Shown here: piece after piece, positions 13,415 to 16,235 of the stretch
Layout of the letters: every line of letters starts with the position of its first letter
Numbering within the stretch: position 1 is the stretch's first letter
From: Acidisarcina sp.
GTDB taxonomy: Bacteria > Acidobacteriota > Terriglobia > Terriglobales > Acidobacteriaceae
Length of the DNA: 64,000 bases
Direction: 5' to 3'
Assembly: GCA_035539175.1 (NCBI GenBank)
Contig: DATLIY010000007.1
Location: forward strand, 496,001-560,000
The notes under the pieces: generated by a model
The model's input: the letters and a program-made list of their open reading frames with translations, nothing else
What the model was told of the DNA's origin: nothing
Database searches by the model: none
Program-made: the position numbers and the translations under genes

Positions 13415-14512
13415 TTGGGTTTTAGCGATTTTTGGGGAAATGAACCAACGGTTCGACACCTGCGCGAAGGGATTCGTGCGGGACACATCCCCCCGGCCTT
13501 GATCCTCGCCGGCCCCAGGGGCTCAGGAAAATATACTCTCTCCCTGATGCTCGCGCAGGCCATCAACTGCCTGCGCCAGCCGGAATCGGATGGTCTGCCA
13601 GACTTCTGCGGGGAATGTGCGAACTGCCTGCGCATCGCGGAAGCACAACCGCTCGATACGCGGATCGAGGAAGCGGTCTCCGCTCGCGAAGAGATGCGCG
13701 ACGCCGACAAAAAAGAGACGCGCATCCTGATTCAGACACACCCCGACATCCTCGTGGTACCACCGGACCCGCCGCAATTGCTCATCAAGATGGGCCAGGT
13801 GCGGCGCGTGATCCACGGCATGTACCGCTTTCCCTCCGACGCCCGGCACGCGATCTACATTTTCACCAGCACAGCATTCATGAAGGAAGCCGCGAACTCC
13901 CTGCTGAAGGTTCTGGAGGAGCCCCCTGCGTATGCCAGCATCTTTCTGCTGGCGGAAAACCCCGGCGAGCTGCTGCCGACCATTCGCTCCCGTTCCATCG
14001 TCTACCGCCTGGGCGCCCTGCCAACCGAAACGATTGAGGCCCTGCTTGCGCAGCGGCATCCGGAGTGGAAGGCACCCCAGAGAGCGCTCATCGCGCGGCT
14101 TGCCGAGGGCGCGGTAGGGCGGGCCCTGGGCTTCGACCTGGCAGGCTACATGGCCAGCCGGCAGGATGCACTGGTCATCGTCAAGAATGCCCTCGCCGAA
14201 CCCGACCACTCGGCCCTCTTCCGCATGACCGAAACCTACCGCGCAGGTGCCGAGGGCCAGCAAAAGACCGCGGCGCTGCTCCGTGCCCTCGCCAGCCTGC
14301 TGGAGGATATGCTGTTGCTTCAGTCCGGCACTGCCGGGTTGGTTCGCAACATCGATCTGCTGCCAGAGCTCACCCGCCTCAGCGCCAGCGTCAGTGTCGG
14401 CTGGATCGACGCTGCGGCACGAGGGTTGAACCAGGTGGAGGCTGGAATGCGGCGGAACCTGCTGCGCTCGCTGTCGCTGGATGCCTTTGCGACGGAGCTC
14501 GCCTCCTCCTGA
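13415..14512 (+). CDS. holB: DNA polymerase III delta' subunit (HolB-like)
   Basis: Clamp-loader AAA+ subunit that helps load the beta clamp during replication. It has a P-loop, GPRGSGKYTL, near residue 34, a zinc module with CGECANC preceded by a further Cys, a linker with HPDILVVPPD, the helix ANSLLKVLEEPP shared by delta' and DnaX, and SRSIVYRLG corresponding to the SRC/sensor region. The intact GK in the P-loop leaves DnaX-like ATP binding possible; length (365) favours delta'. TTG 13415 is chosen since AGGAGA lies seven bases upstream; longer in-frame starts run into the divergent flavoprotein gene. Confidence 0.85.
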   Translation: MGFSDFWGNEPTVRHLREGIRAGHIPPALILAGPRGSGKYTLSLMLAQAINCLRQPESDGLPDFCGECANCLRIAEAQPLDTRIEEAVSAREEMRDADKKETRILIQTHPDILVVPPDPPQLLIKMGQVRRVIHGMYRFPSDARHAIYIFTSTAFMKEAANSLLKVLEEPPAYASIFLLAENPGELLPTIRSRSIVYRLGALPTETIEALLAQRHPEWKAPQRALIARLAEGAVGRALGFDLAGYMASRQDALVIVKNALAEPDHSALFRMTETYRAGAEGQQKTAALLRALASLLEDMLLLQSGTAGLVRNIDLLPELTRLSASVSVGWIDAAARGLNQVEAGMRRNLLRSLSLDAFATELASS

Positions 14513-14652
14513 CGCTGCGGCCCGCGCGGTTACTCCCACTTCGAATTTCCTTCGAGGACTCGCGATTTCTCTGGAGCGGCCGCCAGAGCCGGGATACCAT
14601 ACTCGCAGAAACTCAGAATTAGGAAAGGCAATCCTAGTTTGGAGGGAGAGTC

Positions 14653-14727
14653 ATGCCCGGCCCAGCCTGGCATGAACCCAAACTCGTTCGACTAAGGTGG
14701 CATCCAAACACCAGAGTCACAAACTGA
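14653..14727 (+). CDS. Possible 24-residue leader ORF upstream of hfq-like gene
   Basis: ATG 14653 has a strong GGAGGGAG ribosome site (14641-14648) and opens a 24-codon frame ending at TGA 14725-14727. It is in the same frame as the Hfq-like gene, whose ATG 14734 follows two codons after the stop and has no clear ribosome site of its own. Translation of the mini-ORF could therefore couple to the downstream gene, or TGA readthrough could join them. The peptide is rich in Arg, Trp and Pro. Expression is not proven. Confidence 0.35.
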   Translation: MPGPAWHEPKLVRLRWHPNTRVTN

Positions 14728-14733
14728 TTCATT

Positions 14734-15177
14734 ATGCGGAATCCGGCCCCACTCACGTCTCCAGCCGCAAAGGAAATCCGCCCCCTTGTTACCAGCCCGG
14801 CTCCTGAGGAGCCGAAAGCCACCTCGCCCGCATCCACGTCTGGAGCCGGGCCACGCAGACTGGTTCGCCCCACCCTGCCGGAGCGCGCTGCCGGCGGCAG
14901 ACGATTCGTGCGGCGGGAGGAGTCGCCCATGCTGACCCACCAGATGGCGCACGATAACCCCGGCTGGCACGATGCTTCGCACGCAGAAGCCTTTTATTTT
15001 CAGAAGCAAATGCAGTCGCAGACGCCGATGGTCTTTGTCCTGGAAGACGGTGAGCGGATTGAGGGCTGCATTGAGTGGTATGACCGCAACGCCATTAAAA
15101 TACGCAACGCGGGCCGTACGCTCATTTACAAATCCAGTGTGAAGTATCTCTACAAGGCGAGTGAAGCTCAACCCTGA
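14734..15177 (+). CDS. hfq: Hfq/Sm-like RNA-binding protein
   Basis: The last 65 residues have the Sm fold of Hfq: a helix EAFYFQKQMQ, Sm1-like PMVFVLEDGERIEGCIEWYD, and Sm2-like TLIYKSSVKYLYK where classical Hfq has YKHAIS. Hfq forms a ring that pairs small RNAs with messages. Two starts are possible. ATG 14734 gives 147 residues with a Pro/Ala/Arg-rich extension and no ribosome site. ATG 14929 has GGGAGGAG six bases upstream and gives 82 residues, the classical Hfq length. The RPTLPERA stretch before it looks protein-like, so both forms may exist. It lies between holB and sua5. Confidence 0.78.
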   Translation: MRNPAPLTSPAAKEIRPLVTSPAPEEPKATSPASTSGAGPRRLVRPTLPERAAGGRRFVRREESPMLTHQMAHDNPGWHDASHAEAFYFQKQMQSQTPMVFVLEDGERIEGCIEWYDRNAIKIRNAGRTLIYKSSVKYLYKASEAQP

Positions 15178-15191
15178 GGCAGTCTACTCGC

Positions 15192-16235
15192 CTATTTAGC
15201 GGCCTTTTGCAATCGGTCGCGGATGGCAACCCCGATGCCTGTCGCCTCCGGCAACGGGCACAGAATCACCGTCACCCCTGCTTCATCCAACTGGCGAAGT
15301 CCGGCGAACAAGCGGCGAGCCAACTCCTCTTCGTTCGTCCACTGCCCCCAGCGGTAGACCGCCATCTTCCCCGCATCGACGGAAAAGCCTTCCGGCAGCA
15401 TAAGACCGATGCGCTCCCCTCTCCAATCGGCGTCGGCTACGGCTGCCGCGAAGTCCTGCCTCTGCTGCTGTCCGGTGCCGCCGACCAGCACCAGCCGGGC
15501 ATGTGGCGCGTAGTGTCGCAACCCCACCCCGGGAGAGGGCAGAGATTCGGGTTCGCCAGCAGCCGCTACGGGTTCAAAGAGCGTTGTTCCCGGGCATAGC
15601 TCGCGGATCTGCTCCAGCGTAACCACTCCTGGCCGATAGATGACCGGGGGATCCTCGCATACATCGATCACCGTGGACTCCAGGCCATGAATCGCCTCCC
15701 CCGAGTCCAGCACAGCGTCGATGCGGCCCTCCAGGTCGTCCAGAACATGCTGCGCCGTAGTGGGACTGGTATGTCCAAAGGAGTTTGCGCTCGGCGCGGC
15801 GATGGGTACACCGGCGAGGCGGATCAACTCCAGCGCAACGGGATGAGAAGGCATGCGCACGCCAACCCGCTCCCGCCCAGCCGTCACCAGCGCGGGAATC
15901 TCCCCGGCGCGCGGCACCAGCAGCGTGAGCGGCCCGGGCCAGAAGGAGCGCCGCAGACGATCGGCCGCATCCGGGAGGCTACCCGCCACACGTCGCAGCA
16001 TAGCCTCATCGCAGACATGGACAATCAGTGGATCCCACCGGGGGCGCTGCTTGGCGACAAAGATCGCGGTGACTGCCGAGGCGTCCAATGCGTTGCCGCC
16101 CAACCCGTAGACTGTCTCCGTGGGAAACGCGACAGTTCCACCACCACGCAGGATGGAGGCAGCCTTCTGCAAGGATGATTGTGACAATTCCGAATGCAGG
16201 TCGCTGGCATCGACCGCCAATCGCAGAGTTTTCAT
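15192..16235 (-). CDS. tsaC: L-threonylcarbamoyladenylate synthase (Sua5/TsaC2)
   Basis: Makes threonylcarbamoyl-AMP from threonine, bicarbonate and ATP, the first step of the universal t6A37 tRNA modification. The YrdC domain (residues about 15-210) is clear: GGGTVAFPTETVYGLGG, KQRPRWDPL (in place of the usual KxRP..PL), FWPGPLTLL, VGVRMPSHP and APSANSFGHTSPT. A PGVGLRHYAPH linker and a C-terminal Sua5 domain complete the long Sua5 form of 347 residues, rather than the short TsaC. It is convergent with the hfq-like gene (14-base gap) and divergent from the CYTH gene across a small duplicated promoter region. Confidence 0.93.
   Translation of the reverse strand: MKTLRLAVDASDLHSELSQSSLQKAASILRGGGTVAFPTETVYGLGGNALDASAVTAIFVAKQRPRWDPLIVHVCDEAMLRRVAGSLPDAADRLRRSFWPGPLTLLVPRAGEIPALVTAGRERVGVRMPSHPVALELIRLAGVPIAAPSANSFGHTSPTTAQHVLDDLEGRIDAVLDSGEAIHGLESTVIDVCEDPPVIYRPGVVTLEQIRELCPGTTLFEPVAAAGEPESLPSPGVGLRHYAPHARLVLVGGTGQQQRQDFAAAVADADWRGERIGLMLPEGFSVDAGKMAVYRWGQWTNEEELARRLFAGLRQLDEAGVTVILCPLPEATGIGVAIRDRLQKAAK

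Follow-up and report, generated by a model that had tools for sequence, protein, structure and literature searches.

A divergent Hfq-like gene of Acidisarcina with a long N-terminal tail, from a probable third Hfq-like lineage in Acidobacteriota

Background

The window, a stretch of 64,000 nucleotides from the genome of Acidisarcina sp. (Acidobacteriota, Acidobacteriaceae), carries a gene for an Hfq-like protein, called hfqL in this analysis, which raises the question of where its translation starts and how many proteins it yields. Two start codons lie in the same frame, and a short open reading frame ends just ahead of the first. The preliminary description saw in this arrangement a possible regulated double product or coupled translation. 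To judge from the sequences of relatives, neither is backed, and the locus points instead to an Hfq-like lineage that is divergent and widespread and whose N-terminal tail is unusual. Our preferred reading, which we consider likely, is that the gene has a single main product of 147 aa, started at ATG 14734, with a divergent Sm/Hfq fold and a long, probably disordered N-terminal tail, and that it represents a third Hfq-like lineage widespread in Acidobacteriota.

Acidobacteriota are abundant soil bacteria. A literature search for Hfq together with Acidobacteriota listed no paper whose title or abstract dealt with Hfq in this phylum, and in the wider literature no title among the matches listed concerned a third Hfq of Acidobacteriota. 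The available part of PMC7074383 mentions Acidobacteria a single time, where the legend of an Hfq tree names them as a group.

The locus and its neighbors

The features of the locus are collected in Table 1. The letters bear out what had been noticed about its layout: the mini-ORF opens with ATG 14653 behind a strong Shine-Dalgarno (SD) match, GGAGG, has 24 codons, shares its frame with ATG 14734 and closes with a TGA 6 nt ahead of it; translation from ATG 14734 yields 147 aa and that from ATG 14929, with GGGAGGAG 6 nt ahead, 82 aa; and the Sm2 segment reads YKSSVK. The upstream neighbor, which we take to be holB-like (DNA polymerase III delta-prime), and the downstream neighbor, presumably Sua5/TsaC-like, have counterparts at the loci of relatives. 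A holB-like protein is encoded upstream on the same strand at 122 of the 144 loci examined and a sua5-like protein downstream on the other strand at 102, the 144 counting the same gene repeatedly in places and having many truncated flanks. These neighbors were found at none of the 13 loci L161-L173, 12 of which lie outside Acidobacteriaceae.

Table 1. Features of the hfqL locus, with positions counted from the first letter of the window
Feature	Position	Strand	Basis
hfqL, Hfq-like coding sequence, 147 aa	14734..15177	+	profile matches and alignment of relatives
Mini-ORF, 24 codons and TGA 14725-14727, in frame with hfqL, not conserved	14653..14727	+	sequence
GGAGG, SD match of the mini-ORF	14641..14645	+	sequence; ends 7 nt before ATG 14653
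Promoter -10-like TACCAT, at -139 from ATG 14734	14595..14600	+	consensus match only
GCATC leader box, 34 nt before ATG 14734	14700..14704	+	conserved in related leaders
Tail peptide RRLVRPTL, residues 41-48	14854..14877	+	family motif counts
Internal ATG (Met66), GGGAGGAG at 14915-14922, start signal not conserved	14929..14931	+	sequence; 139 distinct family sequences
Predicted Sm/Hfq-fold domain, residues 84-145	14983..15168	+	AlphaFold2 model, Foldseek
Presumed holB-like gene, upstream neighbor	13415..14512	+	ORF; similar protein in relatives' loci
Presumed Sua5/TsaC-like gene, downstream neighbor, opposite strand	15192..16235	-	ORF; similar protein in relatives' loci

A predicted Sm fold with weak family scores

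The structure of the 147-aa protein was modeled with AlphaFold2 from a 53-row alignment, made of 53 of the 74 listed sequences; seven loci (L022, L023, L045, L048, L055, L070 and L073) had no usable start. The model gives low confidence to the first 80 residues, with block means of 54-69 pLDDT, and values of 77-95 (blocks of ten) to residues 81-147, where a well-predicted helix and five strands follow from residue 84. An N-terminal helix and five strands are also what the protein has in common with canonical Hfq (PF17209, TIGR02383; Caulobacter Hfq 6gwk). When the model was compared with the PDB by Foldseek, all of the 50 matches listed, out of 155 at E <= 0.001, were entries named Hfq or Hfq complexes, with E values of 2.8e-5 to 1.1e-4 and TM-scores by target length of 0.62-0.77. 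According to the model, the gene product has the Sm/Hfq fold.

Profile scores place it at the edge of the named families. Its best Pfam match is PF21979 (Hfq_1, 'Hfq related') with 25.5 bits, just under the cut-off of 27, and from the proteins of this family it differs by its N-terminal tail with R[K/R]L[I/V]RPxL. PF17209 (Hfq) gives 25 against a cut-off of 27, or 26.6 in the genome search, and the TIGR02383 equivalog model gives 21.7, far below its cut-off of 61.7. These sub-threshold scores count against the preferred reading. Two relatives from other families reach 35.4 and 35.8 bits with PF21979, above the cut-off, and 29.7 and 31.3 with NF047718 (Hfq_rel_Cyano, cut-off 52), to which the 147-aa protein scores 19.9; this named cyanobacterial relative is among the nearest named families.

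Three kinds of Hfq in one genome

The genome holds two further genes of the Hfq family, a canonical hfq that scores 100 bits with PF17209 and 102.1 with TIGR02383 (cut-off 61.7), and a second, weaker paralogue with 40.3 bits and 36.2, respectively. The proximal RNA site of Hfq comprises Gln8, Phe42, Lys56 and His57 in E. coli numbering. Relative to the genome's canonical Hfq, the 147-aa protein keeps only the lysine of this site, with Glu in place of Gln, Ser in place of His and Asn in place of the aromatic residue after FDK, and the rim residues RKDK align with MQSQ, leaving no basic rim patch. The canonical protein has both the basic rim and the Sm2 histidine. Several members of the hfqL family outside Acidobacteriaceae also keep this histidine, as in NKHTIKYMYK (L163) and YKHSIKYLFK (L168), and its loss in YKSSVK is therefore probably derived.

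The Sm fold and the Hfq matches would suit an ordinary Hfq that serves as a general sRNA chaperone. We regard this as most improbable, given that a canonical hfq is encoded elsewhere in the genome, that hfqL misses the equivalog cut-offs, and that both the rim and the histidine of the KHA motif are replaced. The term Hfq-like, as used in the preliminary description, is thus apt for the fold and the family matches but not for a role as the cell's hfq, since the gene is a divergent third paralogue beside the canonical one.

In a tree of 38 Sm segments, the three kinds of Hfq form separate groups with supports of 100/99, 86/75 and 90/95, although the tree has few columns and long branches, and the support for two of the three kinds is moderate. 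Three of the 26 paralogue loci (L214, L218 and L220) were left out of it, as were 12 of the 13 loci L161-L173 (all but L164), the 13 having been read separately; the segments of L010 and L109 were shortened owing to an insert. An insert between the two Sm motifs is seen in the MSQ-type proteins (L007, L009, L010, L012 and their kin). The second paralogue of the genome (L002, G000:C7:595444-595614) reads YKHQIRTI and forms its own lineage within the family, with an intermediate score.

Among 60 Acidobacteriaceae genomes of at least 95% completeness, 52 have at least three Hfq-family matches and 8 have fewer. A match of the hfqL type (E <= 1e-3) was found in 110 of 120 sampled Acidobacteriaceae genomes and not in the other 10. 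In 149 genomes drawn from Acidobacteriota the 53-row profile found matches in 103, 8 of these being Acidobacteriaceae, and none in 46. The genomes without a match, in both samples, count against the preferred reading. The plasmid search with the protein of one relative gave no match. By its tail peptide, its homologous core and, as in Acidobacteriaceae, its holB and sua5 neighbors, hfqL is assigned on sequence grounds to a lineage that we define here as the Acidobacteriota RKLIRP-Hfq lineage.

Two observations concern other genomes of the family. In G038, G060 and G078, which are 95-100% complete, the top Hfq match is weak, with E values of 1.8e-5 to 3.6e-8, and the canonical hfq may be absent. 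In genus g34, the profile of the window's type had no match in the nine listed genomes (G034, G097, G129, G149, G167, G181, G195, G208 and G220), which possibly reflects loss of the hfqL-type gene.

The long start and its conserved tail peptide

The close relatives start level with ATG 14734, with MANPS-, MADP- or MSQLP-like residues, the start codons having been chosen by this analysis. Conservation of RPTLPERA, which had been proposed as a check on the two forms, favors the long one, the conserved core being RKLIRPxL. Of 139 distinct family sequences, 87 contain R[KR]L[IV][RS]P, in every case 38-47 residues ahead of the AE.FY motif. It is missing in 52, which by eye are mostly short-tailed, and this counts against the preferred reading, as does the altered peptide RRLVSPIM of L085, a locus of the same genus. 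A comparison with L085 indicates that the tail is under constraint at the protein level: dN/dS is about 0.45 for residues 1-40 and about 0.11 for residues 41-65, and the Sm part has a dN of 0.07 with dS saturated.

Another 33 loci were read, of which all except L162 belong to other families; L244 among them repeats L164. The strict motif [NDHSGQ]R[KR]L[IV]R[PT]xL was found in 24 of them, in 22 cases following the nearest start codon at a distance of one or two residues (M-x-NRKLIRPNL, for example). A relaxed motif was seen by eye in six others (L235, L240, L242, L250, L251 and L252), and none in the remaining three (L162, L166 and L234). Because the strict motif lies mostly at the very N-terminus in the other families, the peptide looks like an old N-terminus, and we infer that the tail of Acidobacteriaceae was extended in front of this ancestral N-terminal peptide.

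The 82-aa form from ATG 14929 would lose the R[K/R]L[I/V]RPxL peptide. Two products of 147 and 82 aa, with different tails and different roles, are suggested by the better SD of the internal start (GGGAGGAG, spacing 6, where ATG 14734 has none), by L085, which keeps the methionine and PMLTHQM, and by the occurrence of some ATG, GTG or TTG in the internal-start stretch of 96 of the 139 sequences, 18 of them with an SD of at least 4 letters. The start signal itself does not recur: an ATG with an SD of at least 5 letters, 6-30 codons before the Sm motif, is found in one of the 139 distinct sequences, the window's own, and in L085 the internal ATG has no SD of at least 4 letters ahead of it. The letters of GGGAGGAG double as Arg-Glu-Glu codons. 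We accordingly rejected a dual-start gene with a conserved internal start and SD, and two products seem very unlikely; the proposed regulated double product finds no counterpart in the relatives, and its short form would be without the conserved tail peptide. What does count against the preferred single 147-aa product is that ATG 14734 lacks an SD, in contrast to both rival ATGs.

A possible docking function

Other Hfq proteins are the more active in annealing the more arginines their rim carries (PMC6561178). Since the basic rim is missing, weak annealing is to be expected, and the 147-aa protein is by its sequence probably a poor annealer of sRNA and mRNA. In the mechanism that we propose, the protein would form a ring that touches RNA through the retained Sm2 lysine, this ring would anneal sRNA and mRNA poorly for want of the basic rim, and the tail peptide would dock it to a partner protein or RNA. 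With its working tail N-terminal, such a protein would have the layout opposite to classical Hfq with a long C-terminal tail. Hfq N-terminal extensions are usually of four residues only and the longer variable tail is C-terminal (PMC6561178).

A precedent for docking is offered by Synechocystis, whose divergent Hfq works via a protein partner, the pilus ATPase PilB1, to which it binds at the base of the pilus (PMC4390875). There, the docking part is the C-terminal domain of the partner, whereas for hfqL we propose docking by its own N-terminal tail. By analogy, this precedent and the nearby cyanobacterial Hfq-related model make a protein-docked Hfq plausible. The Hfq2 of Burkholderia is likewise an extra Hfq-like protein beside a canonical one (PMC7074383); it has 175-216 residues and belongs to another phylum.

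For the search for its partner and RNAs, a third Hfq-like protein that is widespread and has a conserved peptide near its N-terminus is a concrete starting point. We would caution against labeling the gene hfq or shortening it to classical Hfq size, because the shortening would remove the conserved peptide.

The leader: a short upstream frame and a GCATC box

No SD of at least 5 letters stands at the main ATG in any of 24 leaders of the MAN type, and one of 4 letters does so in 3 of the 24. A start without its own SD could be served by coupling: ribosomes recruited to the mini-ORF by its SD would terminate at TGA 14725-14727 and initiate anew at ATG 14734. The strength of that SD, the 6-nt gap and the bare main ATG would suit this scheme, and in 4 of 20 leaders (those of the window, L085, L091 and L013) an upstream frame preceded by an SD-like match of at least 4 letters ends within 20 nt of the main ATG. 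These four frames, however, begin at unrelated places, two of them at TTG, and only that of the window is in frame. In L004/L085, of the same genus, the homologous ATG is kept but by eye opens 7 codons (ATG CCC GGC CGA GCG CTG GAA TGA); this short frame ends about 57 nt ahead of the main ATG, and its own ATG has no detected SD in front. By codon score the mini-ORF looks non-coding, at -0.23 per codon where the Sm part has +0.19.

We obtained a background from 400 kb of the same contig together with the window, taking starts with no other predicted gene in the 150 nt upstream. Among 163 such starts, 3 had a frame of at least 10 codons that was preceded by an SD of at least 5 matching bases and ended at -20 to +10, none of the 3 in frame. 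This background is rough, since the simple gene finder did not call the hfqL gene itself. On these counts, the in-frame leader ORF appears uncommon but not beyond chance. With unlike frames in L004/L085 and upstream frames beginning at unrelated places, the leader ORF was rejected as a conserved feature, and the coupled translation that had been suggested is not backed by conservation. Coupling in the window's organism alone we consider unlikely, though conceivable in view of the bare main ATG. The mini-ORF and the internal start are, as far as the comparison reaches, features of this genome without detectable conservation.

The leaders of relatives have another element in common. GCATC is present in 23 of the 24 MAN-type leaders at -29 to -43, with 19 of the 23 at -32 to -36 (0.46 expected by shuffling), and in 10 of 10 MSQ-type leaders at -40 to -43 (0.22 expected), so that the box lies about 34 nt (MAN type) or about 42 nt (MSQ type) before the start codon. 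The further MSQ-type leaders L174 and L176 agree with this placement. The leader around the box has diverged among relatives and the box has not. A -10-like TA[ACG]NAT occurs in 20 of 24 MAN-type leaders at -87 to -162 and in 9 of 10 MSQ-type leaders at -102 to -109; among the MAN-type leaders it is the spacing to the start codon, and not that to this promoter-like element, which the box maintains. GCATC is not a general feature of the genome, an explanation that we rejected on finding it at 14 of 325 predicted genes (1.3-fold), and by eye it is missing in the 120-nt leaders of the canonical hfq and of the second paralogue. In the window's lineage, the alignments thus describe an SD-less leader with a conserved GCATC box.

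The box could mark initiation at ATG 14734 that is independent of an SD and controlled by an RNA-binding protein, perhaps hfqL's own product or another Hfq-like protein, or by a small RNA. The counts, the constant distance to the start codon and the lack of genome-wide enrichment argue for such control. Shared ancestry, on the other hand, inflates the counts, the MSQ-type leaders carry both the box and an SD, and a role at the DNA level is possible. The rest of the family is mostly without the box: in 109 other sequences, 20 have GCATC at -48 to -25 of some candidate start, where 6.0 are expected, and 5 of the 20 (L174-L177 and L188, three of them repeats) are of the MAN or MSQ kinds. The consensus of the 24 leaders contains no conserved pairing, and an Rfam search gave no match; with single folds of the 24 that differ, a conserved structured RNA was rejected. 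Control through the box is possible on this evidence, though we would sooner expect it to be wrong than right. The box may reach a little beyond the MAN and MSQ types, GCATC being found at -32 and -33 of an ATG in L103 and L110 and at -39 to -47 in L058, L060, L064, L065 and L080.

Joining these parts, we tentatively propose a third widespread Sm ring of Acidobacteriota, whose N-terminal peptide RKLIRPxL would dock to some partner and whose mRNA, in the window's lineage, would be SD-less, under a GCAUC box about 34 nt before the start, and possibly self-regulated; as a whole this picture is rather improbable.

The ten MSQ-type leaders (L007, L009, L010, L012, L015, L018, L020, L097, L101 and L102) also have GCGACG in common at -61 to -64, and several MSQ-type leaders carry a second GCATC, which looks like a longer conserved leader element.
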